DNA of 64,000 nt from Desulfosudis oleivorans Hxd3. GTDB lineage: Bacteria; Desulfobacterota; Desulfobacteria; Desulfobacterales; Desulfosudaceae. The DNA lies in NCBI RefSeq assembly GCF_000018405.1, contig NC_009943.1:871001-935000 (forward strand), read 5' to 3'. The translations under genes were made by a program, and so were the position numbers. This document shows, piece after piece, positions 53,644 to 63,377 of this stretch (the first letter of the stretch is position 1; every line of letters begins with the position of its first letter). Below the pieces are notes generated by a model. That model ran no database searches. It was not told the DNA's origin and saw only the letters and a program-made list of their open reading frames with translations.

Positions 53644-54204
53644 TCAGCCGTGACGGTCCATGGCGTCCGTTATTTCGCGGAACATGTCCACCAGGCGCAG
53701 CACACCGACAATCTTTTTATCTTTCAACACAAGCAGGGATTGATGGCGGCCCACCACCAGCAGGTGGATGGCCTCCTCTATAGTGCCGTTTTCGGTGATG
53801 TATTCACCTTCTTTGGGCTTGTACATGAAGGTTTTTACCGGCCGGTTGGCCGCCTGTTGCACCAGTTGGGACATGGGTGTGGACCAGAGGTTGTACTGGG
53901 TACACATGTCGGTAAAAAATTTCTTGCTGAACCCGAACCGGGTCATGCCTGATTCGCTGTCCGGTTCGCACAGGTCCATGTACTTGGGCTCCAGGGCCTT
54001 AAGCACATCGATCTGACTTATTTTGCCCACCACCTGCTGCTCCCTGTCGATCACGATGATGGCCCGATGGGCATACTGGTCGTCGTCATGCTGTTTCTGG
54101 GCATTTTTCAAGGCGGCCAGGGCATCCTTTAAGGTCGCATCTTCGGAAACCGTTGCGTATTCGCCTATGGGCACCATCAGGTCTTTTACCTTTTTTTCTT
54201 CCAC
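53644..54204 (-). CDS. CBS-domain-pair protein
   Basis: A 186-residue protein of two CBS motifs (VKDLMVPIGEYATVSEDATL and the second near 125, GTIEEAIHLLVVGRHQSLLV). A pair of this type binds adenosine nucleotides and tunes partner proteins. Starts at GTG 54204, with GGAGG ten bases before. It is downstream of the TIGR03545 gene with a 60-base gap. Partner unknown. Confidence 0.88.
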   Translation of the reverse strand: MEEKKVKDLMVPIGEYATVSEDATLKDALAALKNAQKQHDDDQYAHRAIIVIDREQQVVGKISQIDVLKALEPKYMDLCEPDSESGMTRFGFSKKFFTDMCTQYNLWSTPMSQLVQQAANRPVKTFMYKPKEGEYITENGTIEEAIHLLVVGRHQSLLVLKDKKIVGVLRLVDMFREITDAMDRHG

Positions 54205-54264
54205 CGCAAACCTCCATGAGATTAAAGTGTTGTTATATATAGCCCGTTTTGTCGCCGCGGGTTA

Positions 54265-55998
54265 TCATTTCCCCAGATCTTTGAGAAGCGATTCACCCAG
54301 GTTCAGCCGGCCGGCCAGCTCTTTTTCAATGCCGTCCAGGGCAGCCGGGTACTGGCCCGGTGTCCCCACCGCCGCCTGGATTTTTTCTTGCATGGTTGTT
54401 TTCAGCGCGGTTTCAAACCGGGCGGTTTCCGCCTTCAGCTGGTTTGCCAGGGCGGTTTTAACGGCCTCGTCAATGCTGGACGACACCTTGATATCCATAT
54501 CCTCGATCGGGCCGATGGCCGAGGCCCGGACATCAAAGGCCCGAATATCGCCCAGGGCCGAGGCAATGGCCGTTTTCACGGGCCCGGCATCCTTTTCCAT
54601 GTCCAGGGACAGCGACGCTTTTTTCGTGTTCAGAACGCCCGAGGCGTTGATGCCGCTGTTATCCAGCCGTCCGCGGACCGAGAGGTCGGCCAGCCCGGAT
54701 TTTAAGGCCAGCGGGAACGACGGGTCGTCCACCAGCACGGCATTGCTGAAGGCATACCGGTCCACGGACAGGTCCACGGTGTGGACCGGTTTTTGAGGCG
54801 AAACAAAATTGACCGCGCCTTTGGCCGCCACCGAGGCGGCCTGTTTTAAATCCTTACCGCTGAAGGCAAACGTGGTGGGCGCGCCCAGAATATGCTGCTC
54901 AAGTGTCAGGTTTTCAATGGTGCCGCCAATATCTCCCATTTCGAGCACGGCCTGGGCGTGAATCTTCCGGATCAGAAAATCAGGCAGGGGGTTTGCCTCC
55001 CGAAAGCGAATGTCCACGCCTTTTCCCCGTTCCGGCGGCGCCGGTTTTTCTTTTTTGTCCCTGCCGGATGCCGTGGCCTTTACGACATAGGGCTGCACGC
55101 GCTGGTACCATTTTTGGGCCGTTGTCACCCAGGCGTAAATCTTTTCACCAAACAGCAGGCGGCTGATGTTGGCGACGCCGCCGGTGGAGAGGCCGTATTT
55201 TTCCACCAGGCGTTTCAGGTCCTTCGCCGGGGCCTGGGTCACCTGCTCTGCCCGTTTTTCAAAACGGGTCCGGTCGGTCTCAAGAGCGGCTTTTGCCGCC
55301 TTTACCCGGTCCAGGTCGGCCTTTATCTCTTTGGAAAGGACCGCAGCTTCACCGGCTGTGCCCAGAAGGCCGGAAAGCCCCCTGGCGCCGGTTTTGATTT
55401 TGTTGATCCGGCTTTTGTACTCCTCAAAAGCCTGGCGGTCGGGCAGCTCCTGAATCCTTGCTTCCCACCGGGCCCTGGCGGCGTCGATGTCGGCTTTGAG
55501 TTCATTGGCCAGCCGGATGGTTTCCAGGTCCTCTTTTTCCAGGATTTCTTTTGGATCCGGCATGTCAAAGGATGGCAGGTTAAATTTTTTTGCGGCTTTT
55601 TCGGCGTTTTTTGGCCGGTCTGCCGTCCGTTTTTTAACGGCGCCGGAAACGGACCGGGCTGTGCCGAACCGCATGCCTTCGATTCCCATTTCATCAATGA
55701 TCAGCTTTCTGCGAAGCAGCCGGCCCGAATCCACCGTCATCACCATTTCGCCGATCTCCACGGCATTGGTCATGGGGCTGTCCGGATCGGTCACGGCAAG
55801 ACCGCTGATTCTCATACCCGCCGGCACCAGGGTAAGGTCAAGGCCGGCGATTTCCACTTTTGCCCCCACCATGGCGGTGCCCCGTCGTTCGATTATGCCT
55901 TTGACGATGGCGTCCGCGAACAGCAGCCAGAAACCAGCCAGCCCCCCCACAAGCACCACGAAGGCGATCAGGCCCGGCCATCGAATCAGTTTTTTCAT
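54265..55998 (-). CDS. TIGR03545-like AsmA-type membrane protein
   Basis: A 577-residue protein. One N-terminal TM (LIAFVVLVGGLAGFWLLFA) precedes a large, probably periplasmic region; the start pattern AKVEIAGLDLTLVPAGMRISGLAVTDPDSP is similar to AsmA-like lipid-transfer proteins. The middle third has charged coiled coil. It pairs with the TIGR03546-type gene upstream (12-base gap); the two families occur together. The exact role is unknown; envelope maintenance is inferred from the fold. Confidence 0.82.
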   Translation of the reverse strand: MKKLIRWPGLIAFVVLVGGLAGFWLLFADAIVKGIIERRGTAMVGAKVEIAGLDLTLVPAGMRISGLAVTDPDSPMTNAVEIGEMVMTVDSGRLLRRKLIIDEMGIEGMRFGTARSVSGAVKKRTADRPKNAEKAAKKFNLPSFDMPDPKEILEKEDLETIRLANELKADIDAARARWEARIQELPDRQAFEEYKSRINKIKTGARGLSGLLGTAGEAAVLSKEIKADLDRVKAAKAALETDRTRFEKRAEQVTQAPAKDLKRLVEKYGLSTGGVANISRLLFGEKIYAWVTTAQKWYQRVQPYVVKATASGRDKKEKPAPPERGKGVDIRFREANPLPDFLIRKIHAQAVLEMGDIGGTIENLTLEQHILGAPTTFAFSGKDLKQAASVAAKGAVNFVSPQKPVHTVDLSVDRYAFSNAVLVDDPSFPLALKSGLADLSVRGRLDNSGINASGVLNTKKASLSLDMEKDAGPVKTAIASALGDIRAFDVRASAIGPIEDMDIKVSSSIDEAVKTALANQLKAETARFETALKTTMQEKIQAAVGTPGQYPAALDGIEKELAGRLNLGESLLKDLGK

Positions 55999-56010
55999 GT
56001 GATTCTCCCT

Positions 56011-56517
56011 TCAGTTCGAAAGTGCCTGGTAGGCCTGAAACAGGCGGCTGCCCTTGAGCAGTTCAACAACCCGGAGCCGGCGGACCCATGCCAGCACCGA
56101 ATCCCGGTAGGCCTGGATCAGCCGGTTGGCGATAAAATATACGGGCACGAACAGCACCAGGGAAACCAGCAGGCTGCCCATGACAATGGTGTTGTTAAAA
56201 TGGGCCAGCCGGAACAGGGTCATGTTGTAGAACACGATCCAGAGGGACTCCAGGGCCGAGGATTGAAGCACGGCCAGCCCCAGGGCGTGAAACAGCGGGT
56301 CCGCAAGGTAGGCAATGCCTGAAAACACTCCCCACCCCACGATGAACATGGAAAGGTTGACCCGTAGGATGAGGGCCAGCAGCACCACCAGGAGGTTGTG
56401 CAGGGAAAGAAGTGGTGTGAAACCGATGATCATGGCAAGGCAGATCCCCAGGCTGATCTGGCCCGGTTCGGTTTCCGAATTCAGTGCCTTCAAAAGCTTG
56501 GCAAGCAGTCTGATCAT
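56011..56517 (-). CDS. TIGR03546-like membrane protein
   Basis: A 168-residue membrane protein with three or four TM segments. The N-terminal part ALNSETEPGQISLGICLAMIIGFTPLLSLHN resembles the DUF2062 loop and membrane pattern. The start at 56517 has GGAGGATAG upstream. Twelve bases before the TIGR03545-like gene, so one operon. No function is established. Confidence 0.82.
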   Translation of the reverse strand: MIRLLAKLLKALNSETEPGQISLGICLAMIIGFTPLLSLHNLLVVLLALILRVNLSMFIVGWGVFSGIAYLADPLFHALGLAVLQSSALESLWIVFYNMTLFRLAHFNNTIVMGSLLVSLVLFVPVYFIANRLIQAYRDSVLAWVRRLRVVELLKGSRLFQAYQALSN

Positions 56518-56874
56518 TTCCGCTATCCTCCGGCGTTGGTTGTGGGGGATGAAAAACAGAGAAACCGGCGTTTGGGGCCGCAATATCTACCCCGTAAGCC
56601 TGATACCAGCCATAACAAAAACCGCTGAACCTGTCAATCGCTGACCGATAACCGGTTTATATGAAAAGGGATATCCAGACAGTTGCTGGCGCTGAATTTT
56701 ATAATAAATCCTGTTGACTATTGGCCGGTAATCCACTATAGCAGGGGGCAGATAAAAGGATGGCGGCAGGGTAAAAAGCCCTTAACCCGATAGATCGCCC
56801 GGCAACGGGTGAATGCGGGGTTGAGGGTTTTTTAGAATCTCTCCATCCAAACCCTGATAAACGGACGGTCTTTT
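56518..56874. other. Divergent intergenic region upstream of Fo operon
   Basis: About 357 bases between the TIGR03546-like gene and the ATP synthase membrane genes. The only assignable element is the promoter at 56714-56742. No further gene seen. Confidence 0.6.
56714..56742 (+). promoter_or_regulatory. Sigma70-type promoter of the Fo operon
   Basis: TTGACT (56714-56719) and TATAGC (56737-56742) with a 17-base spacer. It lies about 130 bases before the first Fo-operon gene, leaving a leader of roughly that length. Confidence 0.65.
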
Positions 56875-57159
56875 GTGGCACCGCGCCGGGTTTTCGACTA
56901 CAGGCAGAACAAGACATGGACGGAAAACCTCCATGTGGTGATGCAGATCGGTCTGACCATGGCGGGGAGCATCGTCTTCTGCCTGTTTGTGGGCCTTTAC
57001 CTGGACCGCTGGCTGGGCACAAAAGGGATCTTTACAACAATCTTTATTGTTCTGGGCATTATCGGCGGCGGCATCGTGGTCTATCGCCAGATCATGGAAC
57101 TTGCCGAGCCGATGAAACCGCCCGGCCGGTCGGACCATCATGGCAACGGCACAGATTAG
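56875..57159 (+). CDS. AtpZ/AtpI-like ATP synthase accessory protein (AtpZ)
   Basis: A 94-residue two-TM protein beginning at GTG. VMQIGLTMAGSIVFCLFVGLYLDRWLGTKGIFTTIFIVLGIIGGG matches the AtpZ/AtpI family, small proteins found at the head of F-type ATP synthase operons and thought to help c-ring assembly or Mg2+ transport. Overlaps the next gene by 20 bases. Confidence 0.82.
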   Translation: MAPRRVFDYRQNKTWTENLHVVMQIGLTMAGSIVFCLFVGLYLDRWLGTKGIFTTIFIVLGIIGGGIVVYRQIMELAEPMKPPGRSDHHGNGTD

Positions 57160-57538
57160 AAAAATTCAGAAAAAATACTGTTCCAGGGCATTGATGCTTG
57201 CCATTATCGCCTTTTTCGGCCTCTATCTTGCCGGCCAGGTGGCCATGGGAAAGGGCCTGCTGCTGGGCACGCTTTTCAGCGTGGTCAACTTCGTGCTGAT
57301 GGGCGAAACCCTGCCGTCCCGGCTGGCGCCGACAAAAAGGCGGCGCATTACCGCGGCCCTCGGATCCATGGGCATGCGGTTCGCGCTGATGGCCGTTCCC
57401 ATTGTGCTGGCCATCCGGCTGGACACCTATAATCTGGCAACCGTGATGATAGGCCTGTTTTCCGTGCAGGGGGTCCTGCTGGCCGACGGTGTGCTGGGTC
57501 GCCGGGCCTGGCGGGAACAGTTTTCAGAATCAGAATAG
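57140..57538 (+). CDS. atpI: AtpI-like ATP synthase subunit I
   Basis: A 132-residue protein with about four TM segments (LAIIAFFGLYLAGQVAMGKG, LLGTLFSVVNFVLMGE, ALMAVPIVLAIRL and TVMIGLFSVQGVLLADG), the ATP-synt_I layout. AtpI assists c-ring assembly. Coupled to the previous gene by a 20-base overlap; a 67-base gap then leads to the fused c subunit. Confidence 0.82.
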   Translation: MATAQIRKIQKKYCSRALMLAIIAFFGLYLAGQVAMGKGLLLGTLFSVVNFVLMGETLPSRLAPTKRRRITAALGSMGMRFALMAVPIVLAIRLDTYNLATVMIGLFSVQGVLLADGVLGRRAWREQFSESE

Positions 57539-57605: not shown

Positions 57606-58571
57606 ATGGAATTAGAAACATGGATCAGAATGGCGGCCATCAGCGGAGCGGCGCTGTCCATGGGCCTGGGCGCCATCGGCGCGGCCGTGGGGGAAGGTTA
57701 CACCGCGGCCTGTGCCAACGAGGCGATAGGACGCAGCCCGGAACGGTCCGGTGAAATCTTTAAAAGCATGCTCATGGGCGAGGCCATTGCCGAGACATCG
57801 GCCATCTTTGCCCTGCTCATTGCCATGATGCTGCTGTTTACCGGCTCCGCCACCGATCCCATCACGCCCTACGTACTGCTTTCCGCCGGCCTCTGCATGG
57901 GGTTCGGCGCCATCGGCGCGGGTATCGGGTCGGGCCTGCCCGCCGGGGCCTGCTGCCTGGGCATCTCCCGGCAGCCCGAGGTGTCTGACCGGCTCACCAC
58001 CAACATGCTCATCGGCGCTTCGATTTCCCAGACCACCGCCATTTACGCCCTGGCCGTGGCCCTGATGATCATGTTTCTGAACCTGTCCGCCCAACCGGTC
58101 TGCCCCACCTGGGCCGCTGTTATCGGGGCCGGGCTTGCCGTGGGGCTGGCCGCCATCGGACCGGCCATCGGTGAAGGCCGGGCGGCCCAGACCGCCTGCG
58201 AGGGCATTGCCAGAAAGCCCCAGGCCGCGGTGCAGATCACCAGCCTGATGCTCCTGGGCATGGCAGTGACCGAGTCCACCGGCGTATACGGTCTGCTGAT
58301 CAGTATTATACTGGTGTTCAAGTCCTTTCCCGAGACCCTGGCCCTGGCGCCGGCCATGTCCCTGCTGGGGGCCGGTCTCTGCATGGGGCTGGGTGCCATC
58401 GGCCCGGGCATCGGCGAAGGGTTTGCCGCCGGCGAGGCCATCAAGTGGGTGGGCAGAAACGAGCAGCACGCCGGTGTGCTGACCCGCACCATGCTGGTGG
58501 GCCAGGCGGTGTCGGAATCCACGGGCATCTATGCCCTGGTGGTGGCGTTTGTGATGATTTTTGTGGTGTAA
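57606..58571 (+). CDS. Four-hairpin fused ATP synthase c subunit (ion site absent in hairpin 2)
   Basis: A 321-residue protein made of four c-subunit hairpins (eight TM segments): residues 1-80, 81-160, 161-240 and 241-321. Each repeats GAIGxxxGEG in helix 1 and an ion-site motif in helix 2. The carboxylates are E63 (IAETSAIF), E223 (VTESTGVY) and E304 (VSESTGIY); hairpin 2 has Q142 (ISQTTAIY). In helix 1 the Glu at the second-carboxylate position is E30, E190 and E271, with S109 in hairpin 2. Thus three of four hairpins can bind an ion. A single c gene is nearby, so the ring may be mixed. Quadruplication within an F-type c is unusual. Confidence 0.92.
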   Translation: MELETWIRMAAISGAALSMGLGAIGAAVGEGYTAACANEAIGRSPERSGEIFKSMLMGEAIAETSAIFALLIAMMLLFTGSATDPITPYVLLSAGLCMGFGAIGAGIGSGLPAGACCLGISRQPEVSDRLTTNMLIGASISQTTAIYALAVALMIMFLNLSAQPVCPTWAAVIGAGLAVGLAAIGPAIGEGRAAQTACEGIARKPQAAVQITSLMLLGMAVTESTGVYGLLISIILVFKSFPETLALAPAMSLLGAGLCMGLGAIGPGIGEGFAAGEAIKWVGRNEQHAGVLTRTMLVGQAVSESTGIYALVVAFVMIFVV

Positions 58572-58649
58572 GACAGTTTCCGCGCCCCGGGCCGCCATCG
58601 GCAGACGGCGGGGCAGGGTCGCGGCAGTGGAAGGAGACGGCGAACCGCC

Positions 58650-59324
58650 ATGGATGAACTCGGATACATACATCAGCTGATCGTGCCCTTTTTCGGTCAT
58701 GAATTGACGTTCAACATCAAGGTCATTGCCATGGTCTGGATCGTGATGGCCATTCTGATCGTTTTCGCCCTGTTTACCACCCGCAACCGGGGCCTGGTAC
58801 CGGGCAGAATGCAGATCGTCGGCGAATTGCTGGTGACCCAGCTTTATGCCCTGACCGAGGATGCCCTGGACGAGAAGCTGGGCAGAAAACTGGCGCCCAT
58901 GATCTGCGCCCTGTTCATGTTCCTGGTGATGAGCAACTACATGGGGGTGATCCCCTTTATGGAAGAGCCCACCAAGGACCTGAATGTGCCGCTGAGCCTG
59001 GGCATCATGGGGTTTGTGATCGCCCACTTTTTCGGCATAAAACAAAAGGGGCTTCGGGCATATGTCAAAGGATACATGGAACCCTTTTTTATTCTGCTGC
59101 CGTTGAATCTCATCGGCGAGCTGGCCAAGGTCATCTCCATCTCCTTTCGTCTGTTCGGCAATATCATGGGCGGATCGATCATTATCCTGGTGGTGAGCCA
59201 CCTGGTGTACAGCCTGATTCTTCCCCCGTTTCTCTGTTTCTTTTTCGGGCTGTTCGTGGGCACCATTCAGGCCTTTGTATTTACCATGCTGACCATTGTG
59301 TATGTGTCGGTACAGATTAAATAA
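58650..59324 (+). CDS. atpB: ATP synthase subunit a
   Basis: A 224-residue inner-membrane stator subunit carrying the ion half-channels. [13 protein letters not shown] at the N-terminus, [23 protein letters not shown] near 150-172 with the essential Arg, and the last helix [21 protein letters not shown] identify it. It lies between the fused c and single c genes, so the rotor genes flank it. Confidence 0.95.
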
Positions 59325-59367
59325 CTCATCAAAGTCCGGTTTTGAACCGGCAACAGGAGGAAGACAA

Positions 59368-59616
59368 ATGGCAATCGAAGGTACAGACATCATTCAGGCG
59401 GCGGCGTTTCTGGGTGCGGGGCTGGCCATGGGCCTGGGCGCCATCGGACCGGGCGTGGGTGAAGGCATGGCCGCGGCCAAGGCGTGTGAAGCCATCGGCA
59501 AAAACCCGGCCGAGGCCGGCCTGCTGACCCGGACCATGCTGGTGGGCCAGGCGGTTTCCGAATCAACGGGTATCTACTCGCTGGTGGTGGCCCTGCTGCT
59601 GCTGTTTGTCGTGTAG
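59368..59616 (+). CDS. atpE: ATP synthase subunit c (single hairpin, two-carboxylate sodium-type)
   Basis: An 82-residue c subunit with two TM helices. E32 ([10 protein letters not shown]) and E65 ([10 protein letters not shown]) form the two-carboxylate pattern first described in Fusobacterium nucleatum. V63, S66, T67 and Y70 match the residues that coordinate Na+ in Ilyobacter tartaricus c. Sodium coupling is therefore suggested, without proof. AGGAGG is upstream of the ATG. Together with the fused subunit it would make a mixed rotor. Confidence 0.95.
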
Positions 59617-59765: not shown

Positions 59766-60224
59766 ATGGAACTCATCTATATACCCGGCATGATCACCAT
59801 TAACGAAACCATGGTGGTGGTTCTGGTTTCGTTTCTGATCCTGGTGTTTGTGCTCAACCGGATCATGTTCCGTCCCCTGCTGGATACCATGCAGCAGCGG
59901 GATGACCGGATGGACCAGCTGGACAGGGAGATTGACGCCAGCCGGCAGGAGGCCGAGGCGTTGAACCGGGACCTGCGTGAGCGCGAGGATGCGGCCCGAA
60001 AGGACGGCTTTGACCGGAAAAAAGAGCTGGAGTCCCTGGCCGGCGGACAGGCGGCCGAGATGATGGAGGCCTCCCGCCAGGAAATCTCCCGAATGAAGGA
60101 GAAGGTCGAGCAGGAGGTGGCGCTTCAACTGGAGGAGGCGCAGAAGCGTGTTCAAAAAGAGGCGGAAGATCTGGCGGCCGGGATCATGGAGCATATCCTG
60201 GACAGGAGCGTGACGGCATCGTGA
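59766..60224 (+). CDS. ATP synthase subunit b' (peripheral stalk)
   Basis: A 152-residue protein with an N-terminal TM (ETMVVVLVSFLILVFVLNRIMFRPLL) and then continuous amphipathic helix rich in E, R, K and Q (RQEAEALNRDLREREDAARK), the usual b/b' stalk shape. A second, longer b subunit gene follows with a GTGA stop-start overlap. Confidence 0.88.
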   Translation: MELIYIPGMITINETMVVVLVSFLILVFVLNRIMFRPLLDTMQQRDDRMDQLDREIDASRQEAEALNRDLREREDAARKDGFDRKKELESLAGGQAAEMMEASRQEISRMKEKVEQEVALQLEEAQKRVQKEAEDLAAGIMEHILDRSVTAS

Positions 60225-60850
60225 GAAAAAATAACGGCATAAAATGGTGGGGATGGGTGACGCTGTCCGTTCTGGTGATGGTTGCCGGTGACGGCACATT
60301 GGCGTTTGCCCAGGAGACGGGCGGCTCGGCCGGGTGGCGGCCTGTATATGACAACGTGATGCTGGTGATCAACTTTCTGATCCTGGTGTTTCTGCTTGCC
60401 AAACTGCTGAAAAACCCTTTGAAAAATTTTCTCAAGACCCGGCATGACGAGGTGGCAAAGGAACTGGAGCGGCTGGAGACCGAAAGAGAGCGGGCCGCCA
60501 ACGACGTGGCGGACACGAAAAAACAGGTTGCCGCGGAAGGCACCCATATCCTTGAGATCAGGGAGCGCATCATCGCCGAGGGGGAACGGACCAAGCTGGC
60601 CATCATTGAAAACGCGAAAAAGGAGAGCGAGTTTTTGATCGAGGCGGCCCGGCGCCGGATTCAGGGTCGGTTCCAGGAGGCCCGGCAGGCCTTTCGTTCC
60701 GAGCTGATCGAATCGGCCATGTCTATTGTCTCCCGGCGGCTGCCCCAGGAGATCGGCCCCCAGGACCAGGCCCGGCAGGTGGACCTGTTTTTTACCAGCC
60801 TGGACCAGGCACAGAGCAAATTTTCATCAGCCCGCTCCGCTTCCCGTTAA
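60221..60850 (+). CDS. atpF: ATP synthase subunit b (peripheral stalk)
   Basis: A 209-residue protein with a signal-like first hydrophobic segment (VTLSVLVMVAGDGTLAFAQ), a second TM (NVMLVINFLILVFLLAKLL) and a long charged helix (EVAKELERLETERERAAND). The start is a GTG that overlaps the stop of b'. The F1 genes (atpHAGDC) do not follow, so the membrane sector is genetically separate here. Confidence 0.88.
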   Translation: MRKNNGIKWWGWVTLSVLVMVAGDGTLAFAQETGGSAGWRPVYDNVMLVINFLILVFLLAKLLKNPLKNFLKTRHDEVAKELERLETERERAANDVADTKKQVAAEGTHILEIRERIIAEGERTKLAIIENAKKESEFLIEAARRRIQGRFQEARQAFRSELIESAMSIVSRRLPQEIGPQDQARQVDLFFTSLDQAQSKFSSARSASR

Positions 60851-61366: not shown

Positions 61367-61981
61367 ATGGCACAGCAGGACACCCCGGCCAGGATTCTGG
61401 AGGCGGCAACAAGCGTCTTTTCAAAAGAAGGGTTCAAGGGGGCCCGCATGCAGCAGATTGCTGCCGAGGCAGGGGTCAACCAGGCCCTGCTGCACTATCA
61501 TTTTGGGTCCAAGGAAAAGCTGTATGAAGAGGTGCTGTTCCGTTTTTTTTCCGATGTTTTTTCCCGGCTGGCGACCGATTTCCAGGCCGAGACCGAACCG
61601 GAAGCCGCCTTTCGCGGCTTTATTCACGCCTATATGGATATTTTGTCCACCCGCCCGGAACTGCCGCGCCTGATGGTATCCGAGGTGCTTGAAGGGGGCC
61701 GGCACATCATGGCGGTGGTGGACCGGATATTTTCACAGACCGGTATCTCGCCGCCCCAGCTGATCCGCCCGTTTATTGAAAAGGCGGTGGCAAGTGACCT
61801 GATCCGGCCGGTGGACCCCATGCAGACCACCATCAGCGTGGTGGGCATGTGCATGTTTTATTTTGTGGCCCGGCCCCTGATGGAACATATCTGGGGAAAA
61901 CCGGCGGATGAAAAGGCGTTTATCGCGCAGCGCAAGGAGGCCATCGTCGACCTTGTGTTTTACGGCATTATAAAGAGGTAG
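61367..61981 (+). CDS. TetR/AcrR-family repressor
   Basis: A 204-residue protein. The N-terminal HTH (residues 7-54, RILEAATSVFSKEGFKGARM with IAAEAGVNQALLHYHFGSKEKL) is the standard TetR DNA-binding domain. The C-terminal part binds an unknown ligand. GGAGG precedes the ATG. It is seven bases ahead of a TolC-family gene and an HlyD gene follows, so it likely represses its own efflux operon through the palindrome upstream. Confidence 0.93.
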   Translation: MAQQDTPARILEAATSVFSKEGFKGARMQQIAAEAGVNQALLHYHFGSKEKLYEEVLFRFFSDVFSRLATDFQAETEPEAAFRGFIHAYMDILSTRPELPRLMVSEVLEGGRHIMAVVDRIFSQTGISPPQLIRPFIEKAVASDLIRPVDPMQTTISVVGMCMFYFVARPLMEHIWGKPADEKAFIAQRKEAIVDLVFYGIIKR

Positions 61982-61988
61982 ACCGAAA

Positions 61989-63377
61989 ATGAAAAAATCA
62001 TCAGACCCATGCAGACAGACAGTATGCCGGTTCCGGCATGCATGGCTTTCGGCCCTGCTGCTGGCCGCTTTTGTGTTTTTTCCGGCGGGCATTTGGGCTC
62101 AGCCCCTGACCCTGGACCAGTGCCTGGAAATCGCGCTTTCCGAAAACCCGGAGATCGCACGGGCCGGTTACGCCCGGGAGGAGGCCCGGCTTCTGACACA
62201 GGAGGCCCGGGCCGGATACTTTCCTGAACTGGCCCTGGGAACCAGTGCCGGGTATCGGTCCGAGGTCAACACCACCCGCCAGGACCCCATCACCATTCCC
62301 ACCGGACCGGCCACACCGCCGCTAACGATACCGGGCCGGGAAACCGAGATCGGCGATAACACCACTGCCGACCTGTCAGTCTCCCTTCGGCAGACCCTGT
62401 ATACCGGCGGCGCTGTTGCCGCCGGGGTGAAGGCGGCCCGGGCCGGCCTGGAGGGCGCGGAGATCCAGGTAAGACTGGAAGAGCGGGAGACCCGGCGTCG
62501 GGTGATTGCGGCTTTTTACGACCTGGCCGTGGCCGTGGAGATGGAAAAGATCGCACGGGCATCGGTGACCCGGATTACCGGCCACCTGGATGACGCGCAA
62601 AACATGCTGGAGCAGGGGCTGATTCTAAAGAGCGACCTTCTGCCCATTCGAATGCGAAAGCTTGACAGCGACCTTGCGGTGATAGAGGCGGGCAATGCCG
62701 TGGCAAAAGCCGGCGCGGCACTGGCCAGAAGCATGGGGCTTGACCCGGCAGCCGGTATCGATATCGCGGCGGACTGGAACAATCCGCCGCCCTGGCCGAT
62801 TCCTGCAACCCTTGCCGCCGCCGGCATGCGGGAGGAACAGCAGATTGTGGACCGGCAGATAGAGGCGGCCGGGGCCCGTGCCAGGGCCGCCCGCGGGGCA
62901 CGGCGGCCCCAGGTGGGCCTTACGGCATCGGCCCACTACGGCTGGCCCGGGTTTGTGGGCAATGATCCGGACTGGGATACCTGGTGGCAGGCCGGTGTCA
63001 ACGCGTCGTGGACCATTTTTGACATGGACCGCCGCCGCAGCCAGGAACAGTCGGCCCTGACCCGGCAGCGGCAGCTGGAGCAGACCGCCAAAAGCCTGGA
63101 CAACCGCATTGCCCAGGAACGGGTTGTGGCCCGCCTGGCGTATGAAGAGGCCTGCCGCCGTCAAGAGATCATGGTGGAAAAGGTGGCGACCGCCCGGGAA
63201 AACTACCAGACCAAAAAAGACCACTTCCAGGTGGGCATTGCCACCAGCACCGACTACCTGGATGCTCACACCGACCTGCTTGGCGCCGAGTTTGACCTGG
63301 CCGCTGCCCGGGCCAGGGTGCGCGTGGCCTGGAGCGACTACCTGACGGCAATGGGTTTAGATGAGGCCCGGAGATGA
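61989..63377 (+). CDS. TolC-family outer membrane efflux protein
   Basis: A 462-residue protein with a signal peptide (LSALLLAAFVFFPAGIWAQP). It has TolC-type features: TLDQCLEIALSENPEI near residue 40 and the long helical halves with ELALGTSAGYRSEV and VGLTASAHYGWPGF as the two beta-strand regions. It would form the outer-membrane duct of a three-part pump with the HlyD-type protein that follows. Confidence 0.92.
   Translation: MKKSSDPCRQTVCRFRHAWLSALLLAAFVFFPAGIWAQPLTLDQCLEIALSENPEIARAGYAREEARLLTQEARAGYFPELALGTSAGYRSEVNTTRQDPITIPTGPATPPLTIPGRETEIGDNTTADLSVSLRQTLYTGGAVAAGVKAARAGLEGAEIQVRLEERETRRRVIAAFYDLAVAVEMEKIARASVTRITGHLDDAQNMLEQGLILKSDLLPIRMRKLDSDLAVIEAGNAVAKAGAALARSMGLDPAAGIDIAADWNNPPPWPIPATLAAAGMREEQQIVDRQIEAAGARARAARGARRPQVGLTASAHYGWPGFVGNDPDWDTWWQAGVNASWTIFDMDRRRSQEQSALTRQRQLEQTAKSLDNRIAQERVVARLAYEEACRRQEIMVEKVATARENYQTKKDHFQVGIATSTDYLDAHTDLLGAEFDLAAARARVRVAWSDYLTAMGLDEARR

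Follow-up and report, generated by a model that had tools for sequence, protein, structure and literature searches.

The fused c-subunit gene studied here (c4) lies in the window, by which we mean the whole 64,000-nucleotide stretch of DNA analysed, within a cassette of seven genes that run on the same strand in the order AtpZ-like, AtpI-like, c4, a, single-hairpin c (c1), b and b (Table 1). Its a, b and AtpI genes are all of F-type, which identifies the cassette as an F-type Fo. An AtpZ-like gene also leads most related loci, and AtpZ-AtpI-a-c(multi)-c1-b-b is the order in most of the loci that we fetched, with c4 placed ahead of a in the window and in locus L022. By eye, the second b has a C-terminal stretch like that of the b encoded in the F1 cluster of the host genome. 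We searched the window and 20 kb of locus L021 for genes encoding delta, alpha, gamma, beta or epsilon, and found none beside the cassette. Promoter and terminator scans were no richer than those of shuffled sequence.

Table 1. Genes of the Fo cassette and hairpins of c4 (positions in the window)
Feature	Position	Strand	Description
AtpZ-like small membrane protein	56875..57159	+	PF09527 ATPase_gene1, E 1.1e-15; first gene of cassette
AtpI-like protein	57140..57538	+	PF03899 ATP-synt_I, E 4.7e-11; overlaps AtpZ-like gene
Fused c subunit (c4)	57606..58571	+	321 aa, four hairpins; Pfam ATP-synt_C matches and AlphaFold2 model
c4 hairpin 1	57630..57842	+	Glu30 and Glu63; GEG / AETSAIF; carboxylate present
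c4 hairpin 2	57870..58082	+	Ser109 and Gln142; GSG / SQTTAIY; dead
c4 hairpin 3	58110..58322	+	Glu190 and Glu223; GEG / TESTGVY; carboxylate present
c4 hairpin 4	58353..58568	+	Glu271 and Glu304; GEG / SESTGIY; carboxylate present, complete Na+-type set
Fo subunit a	58650..59324	+	PF00119, E 1.6e-50; second copy in genome
Single-hairpin c (c1)	59368..59616	+	82 aa; GEG / SESTGIY, complete site; listed ORF begins upstream at 59296
Fo subunit b	59766..60224	+	152 aa; PF00430, E 1.5e-12
Second Fo subunit b	60221..60850	+	209 aa; PF00430, E 1.4e-13

Several other features lie around the cassette. Upstream and in the opposite orientation are proteins of the TIGR03545 and TIGR03546 families (53644-56583, minus strand), adjoined by a protein that is CBS-domain-like by eye. 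Downstream, a TetR-family regulator is followed by a 462-aa protein, which by eye we take to be TolC-like; together they form a probable efflux operon (61367-63377, plus strand). Between 63374 and 63729, open reading frames on both strands carry ERSDAA / CFAALAM-like peptides, resembling those of dispersed intergenic repeats. Antisense to c4 and a runs a 593-aa open frame (57612-59393, minus strand), most likely an artefact of high-GC codon use.

The c4 frame has no internal stop, and re-translation reproduced exactly what an earlier note on this DNA had read from it, namely four c-type hairpins with Glu at the ion site of hairpins 1, 3 and 4, and Gln142 with Ser109 in hairpin 2. Pfam ATP-synt_C was matched four times (per-hairpin E 1.1e-17 to 7.3e-15), and the PF00137 cut-off was passed over four stretches (whole-protein E 3.2e-63), which places c4 in the F-type c subunit family. 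At the DNA level the repeats are spaced by 237-243 bases and are 61-75% alike over the stretches compared. AlphaFold2, run on a 20-row alignment, gives a confident model with a c-hairpin fold (mean pLDDT 94, pTM 0.90), and the glycine-rich first helices are conserved. A homologue with 80% identity is encoded in another genus of the same family (locus L022), and in most four-hairpin relatives the position equivalent to the ion site of c4 hairpin 3 is Gln.

We searched 291 genomes of the host's order with a profile of 20 four-hairpin proteins, counting as carriers those with a match at E < 1e-40. There were 144 carriers; in 127 other genomes the match was only as weak as that of an ordinary c, and the remaining 20 gave none. 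The earlier note knew of no quadruplicated F-type c of this kind. The gene is no rarity, being present in related form in half of this sample and, as four-hairpin genes, in 93 distinct versions (see below). A scan of genome contigs with the window protein alone as query found no relative, and the same scan with the 20-row alignment returned 554 loci, from which we took the best 80. Named carriers among these best 80 of 554 are Fusibacter ferrireducens and Desulfacinum infernum, Dethiosulfatarculus sandiegensis and Desulfoferrobacter suflitae, the last three of which we take to belong to other desulfobacterotal orders. The fused c of Desulfacinum infernum (L154) has the ion-site pattern E-Q-Q-E and that of Dethiosulfatarculus sandiegensis (L145) has five hairpins; carriers among the metagenome-assembled genomes in this set come from Cloacimonadota, Hydrogenedentota, Planctomycetota, Latescibacterota and others. 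Three genomes have two fused-c loci each (L056/L057 in G004, L096/L097 in G150 and L106/L107 in G187), G004 combining a four-hairpin with a five-hairpin gene and G150 carrying a pair of four-hairpin genes.

Our own locus, the regions from the order sample and the best 80 of 554 loci together yielded 133 distinct complete fused genes, with four (93 genes), three (20), five (10), two (7) or six (3) hairpins. Scoring each hairpin as 1 if the ion site has a carboxylate and as 0 if it has none, the four-hairpin genes show the patterns 1001 (39 genes), 1000 (36), 1011 (12; the c4 type), 1010 (4), 0000 (1) and 0010 (1), such that hairpin 1 alone is live in 36 of 93. Three-hairpin genes are 101 (12), 001 (4), 100 (2) or 000 (2), two-hairpin genes are 11 (4) or 10 (3), and the longest genes are 10000 (9), 10001 (1), 100000 (2) or 100001 (1). 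No carboxylate is found in hairpin 2 of any of the 126 genes that have at least three hairpins, and hairpin 1 retains one in 125 of 133 fused genes; with three live sites of four, c4 is one of the least degraded members of the family. Numbering the Na+ ligand set as what we take to be Gln/Glu32, Glu65, Ser66, Thr67 and Tyr70, and including single-hairpin c, the first-helix site has Glu or Asp in none of 293 hairpins with Gln65, as opposed to 318 of 353 with Glu65. Both carboxylates are lost together, in a concerted loss. Up to five dead hairpins occur in a row (L162), and in three loci (L168, L171 and L189) the carboxylate is absent from every hairpin of the fused c, so that the live sites there must come from c1. 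The same three loci contain F1 genes and a live c1.

We compared 25 pairs of four-hairpin genes, 19 to 23 of which were usable per hairpin owing to saturation of dS. dN/dS was 0.048, 0.057, 0.051 and 0.050 for hairpins 1 to 4, respectively. Dead hairpins evolve as slowly as live ones, and we conclude that they are kept by purifying selection. In mean similarity, the additional hairpins of Desulfobacterales genes with five or six hairpins come closest to dead hairpin 2. By the same measure, Desulfobacterales hairpin 1 is, among the four positions, the top match for the first hairpin of Desulfarculales, Syntrophobacterales, SV3, Methylomirabilis and Hydrogenedentota. It is not the top match for that of Planctomycetota and bin47, and Fusibacter and PFL40 show no clear preference, so the similarity table does not demonstrate one common origin of all fused c. 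Two-hairpin c subunits with both sites live are encoded in L166, L185 and L177, and in L166 and L185 the gene is placed after c1 rather than before it; a possible reading is that they represent an early stage of fusion.

A single-hairpin c gene accompanies the fused gene in 136 of 138 loci (58 loci from the window and the order, and the best 80 of 554). The exceptions are L116, where no further Fo gene occurs within about 6 kb upstream and the sequence ends 1.1 kb downstream, and L160, which is cut by a contig end. This arrangement recalls the F/V-hybrid rotor of Acetobacterium woodii (PDB 4BEM, c1 plus c2/c3), an F-type Na+ enzyme in which a fused c likewise occurs beside a single-hairpin c. 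The best match of c4 in both sequence (E 3.6e-25) and fold (Foldseek E 5.2e-7) is chain 4bem_J, which bears out the kinship with the duplicated A. woodii c, and the reading as a fused F-type c with one lost site, that the earlier note had proposed. The A. woodii chain has Glu in hairpin 1 (AETSGIF) and Gln in hairpin 2 (AQTTGIY), the same order and substitution as c4 hairpins 1 and 2, so that a live hairpin 1 and a Gln hairpin 2 beside a single-hairpin c, as in an A. woodii-type hybrid rotor, are all encoded here. The two systems differ in that the A. woodii subunit has two hairpins, one of them dead, whereas members of the present family mostly have four to six. The A. woodii rotor operon contains its own F1; in contrast, the window set has no adjoining F1, although 20 of the 22 loci from other phyla among the best 80 of 554 do have one. 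The ion/ATP ratio of the A. woodii enzyme is given as 3.3 in the portion of PMC5662883 that cites it. On sequence and fold, the A. woodii hybrid rotor is the closest relative that we can name for a family known here from its genes.

Two other classes of rotary ATPase share features with the cassette. The c subunits (K) of V- and A-type enzymes resemble c4 in hairpin fusion and lost sites, and the fold search matched both V-ATPase c and K; fused V-type and archaeal c with lost ligands are described in the relevant part of PMC2359735. The partners here are instead F-type (a, b, AtpI), and we rejected membership of V/A-type K, since the best three models scored 90 against a cut-off of 211 bits, 90 against 101 and 82 against 188. 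N-ATPases are extra rotary ATPases beside a main F-type enzyme, with their own F1, and some of their c subunits have two carboxylates. The cassette, too, is an additional rotary ATPase set besides the main F-type one. We rejected assignment to this class because the cassette scored well short of the cut-offs of the NCBIfam N-type a and b models (altF1_A, 129 against 302 bits; alt b, 41 against 225), c1 likewise missed that of the N-type c model (67.5 against 131) and the cassette has no F1 of its own; c4 (P0001) passed the N-type c model at 180 against 131 bits, which we take as the sum of four hairpins.

The host genome (one contig, 3.94 Mb, 99.99% complete) contains a single F1 cluster, b'-b-delta-alpha-gamma-beta-epsilon, and two a subunits. 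A canonical AtpI-a-c set, with a c of the type GQG / IESL as opposed to the GEG / SESTGIY of cassette c1, lies elsewhere. A third PF00006 match has a far lower score and probably represents a flagellar or Rho-type ATPase. The cell thus possesses two Fo sets and a single F1. In this genome even the canonical a and c genes lie at a distance from the F1 cluster, so that remoteness from F1 is no sign of independence.

We applied our own bit-score thresholds for alpha, beta and gamma to related loci, excluding as presumably not F1 beta some weaker beta-like matches on the opposite strand (50-167 bits; L080, L095, L131 and L145). No alpha, beta or gamma above threshold was found in 58 fused-c loci (the window, L022 and L055-L114; 36 with at least 4 kb on both sides), nor in the 58 loci titled Desulfobacterota, Deltaproteobacteria or Proteobacteria among the best 80 of 554 (31 with at least 4 kb on both sides). 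Combined, these are 116 Desulfobacterota loci (67 with at least 4 kb on both sides), encoding 106 distinct fused proteins, as the two sets have 10 identical ones in common. In L165, a delta gene stands beside the set and the contig then ends. Among the best 80 of 554, F1 genes were in the same locus in 20 of 22 fused-c loci from other phyla or untitled bacteria, and the remaining two sit on pieces of 3.5 and 5.7 kb. Gamma genes were counted in 75 of the 144 carrier genomes: four had none, 53 had one, 16 had two and two had three. The second or third matches (18 of 75 carriers) scored 28-206 bits, some being fragments, versus about 300-335 for most main ones, with the exception of G002 (318 and 307 bits); the weaker second gamma of some carriers may be N-type. 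In a midpoint-rooted tree of 44 a subunits, the F1-less sets group with F1-linked fused-c sets, apart from canonical a, at a grouping with long branches and a long-branch warning. The proposed sharing of a sole F1 by a cassette Fo that lacks its own (see below) would probably extend to other Desulfobacterota.

Which ion such an Fo would carry is suggested by the ligands and by the genomes. The full Na+ ligand set is present in c1 and in hairpins 3 and 4 of c4, and Glu/Gln-Glu-Ser-Thr-Tyr is found in 134 of 140 distinct single-hairpin c, canonical ones included. Hairpin 1 of c4 has Phe for Tyr, and in nearly all genes with at least three hairpins hairpin 1 is without the Tyr, and mostly without the Thr, of the set, which leaves the ion of hairpin 1 unsure. 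An Nqr/Rnf subunit (PF03116) is encoded in 143 of 144 carriers versus 120 of 147 other genomes (Fisher p 6.5e-8, uncorrected for kinship and genome completeness). The c1 motif and this near-constant subunit suggest Na+ as the coupling ion. Two-carboxylate c rings of Fusobacterium nucleatum carry Na+, according to the part of PMC3692424 that deals with them.

We consider it fairly probable that c4 is the fused subunit of a second, Na+-type Fo that forms a hybrid c-ring with c1 and docks on the cell's only F1. The fused chain and the neighbouring single-hairpin c would be built into one ring, in which dead hairpins would occupy places and carry no ion, so that the ions moved per turn would be fewer than the hairpins. 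We infer the hybrid ring from the retention of c-type helices, the complete c1 adjoining and the best match to the fused A. woodii chain. In the host, the Fo (AtpZ, AtpI, c4, a, c1, b, b) would dock, by its b subunits and rotor loops, on the F1 that otherwise sits on the canonical Fo, and the C-terminal likeness of the second b, judged by eye, is consistent with docking on the F1 of the main cluster. A rotor with fewer sites than hairpins, as the earlier note had supposed, is the natural reading of the genes; the change in ion/ATP ratio that it derived from this hinges on the number of c4 copies per ring. By arithmetic only, an 11-hairpin ring would have 10 sites (3.33 ions per ATP) with one c4, 8 sites (2.67) with one pattern-1000 copy and 6 sites (2.0) with one pattern-100000 copy, and three pattern-1000 copies alone would give 1.0 ion per ATP. 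Only one of the four c4 sites is lost, and the number of ions per turn would therefore change little. Moving fewer ions per ATP suits an enzyme to pumping up a steep gradient; ATP synthesis then calls for a larger gradient. A few-site ring would trade ion number for force, and we would expect its main role to be ATP-driven Na+ pumping, with synthesis as the alternative when the sodium-motive force is very high.

Rotation is the main difficulty for this model. In a fused ten-hairpin ring of Bacillus PS3, one E56Q substitution stops synthesis, pumping and DCCD-sensitive hydrolysis (as summarised in the passage of PMC8809890 crediting Mitome 2004); hence, a ring in which as many as five successive hairpins are dead might fail to rotate in the way proposed. 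Passage over the dead arc could perhaps be driven by elastic energy of F1 during hydrolysis. More tentatively, and with less confidence than in the hybrid ring itself, we suggest as a possibility that many Desulfobacterota have a gear-shifting synthase, in which one F1 would serve an exchangeable H+ Fo or a Na+ Fo with inert hairpins, and ions per turn would be tuned by copying dead hairpin 2 while live hairpin 1 and c1 stay fixed.

The same difficulty lends some weight to a different role, in which the fused c would not be a rotor part and would be a platform for assembly, a size template or an inhibitor by which a c1-only ring is held or blocked. The arrest of the PS3 ring by a single dead site, the three fused genes without any carboxylate and the presence of AtpI/AtpZ-type genes in the same cassette all fit such a role. 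It is nevertheless unlikely, given the conserved glycine-rich first helices and confident c-hairpin model, the fact that the related two-hairpin A. woodii subunit is a chain of the crystallised ring, and the carboxylate that 125 of 133 genes retain in hairpin 1, for which a template would have no use. It is distinctly improbable that the cassette Fo is independent of F1, serving either as a regulated Na+ channel or as a motor with some other coupling partner. The lack of alpha, beta and gamma by our own thresholds in the 116 Desulfobacterota loci, which come partly from the best 80 of 554, would suit it, as would the single gamma of 53 of 75 carriers; however, two b subunits are kept, one with the F1-like C-terminal stretch seen by eye, the same Fo type is linked to F1 in 20 of 22 loci of other phyla (best 80 of 554), and the canonical a and c of the host likewise lie far from F1. 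We give little credence to a ring of fused c only (three c4, 12 hairpins), with c1 used in another ring, even though archaeal enzymes with fused c exist (in the part of PMC2359735 on them) and 12 hairpins of c4 alone would include 9 sites, equal to 3.0 ions per ATP: single c is present in nearly all fused-c loci, some fused genes have no carboxylate, and one-site five- and six-hairpin genes would give 1 ion per ATP or less. An origin of the fusion in a sequencing or assembly error, which the earlier note had named as refuting its reading, or as a functionless decaying duplicate, has nothing beyond the loss of one Glu in its favour and can be dismissed, since the repeats are 61-75% alike, homologues occur in L022 at 80% identity and in 144 of 291 genomes, and dN/dS is about 0.05 in every hairpin.

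A second Fo and multi-hairpin c subunits have been noted separately before. In the deltaproteobacterium Desulfococcus oleovorans, according to PMC4154653, the whole Fo set is duplicated at a site remote from the main locus, with a and c that group with Thermotogae, and we infer that this ectopic set is probably the same cassette; the section concerned treats the duplication as that of a single species, and neither fused c nor dead sites come up in it. Desulfotignum phosphitoxidans has two F0F1 ATPases, one split into an F1 cluster and an F0 cluster, according to the corresponding section of PMC4046663, and the ProAD description (PMC11738941) states in general terms that there are c/K variants of two or more hairpins, some with sites and some without. 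The parts of PMC5709465, PMC7031245 and PMC4103992 covered contain nothing on a second Fo, and in the parts of the open-licence literature covered we recognised no description of F-type c with four to six hairpins, of conserved dead hairpins or of a shared F1.

Fused c with lost sites was already known from V/A-type enzymes and A. woodii, and we file the present family as a variant of the hybrid rotor. Among its naturally occurring F-type fused rotor genes, those of three to six hairpins keep no more than three sites, some of them none, yet are strongly conserved. If such rotors turn, the rule that demands a live residue at every rotor site is wrong; if they do not, the fused chain must have another function in Fo. 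If the rotor works, the ions moved per ATP would change, the view that one dead site stops the motor would be contradicted, and the family would be a natural case in which ring size and ion number are altered independently, and perhaps one in which a single F1 serves two Fo motors. These alternatives are directly testable, since Desulfacinum infernum, Dethiosulfatarculus sandiegensis and Desulfoferrobacter suflitae are cultured carriers.
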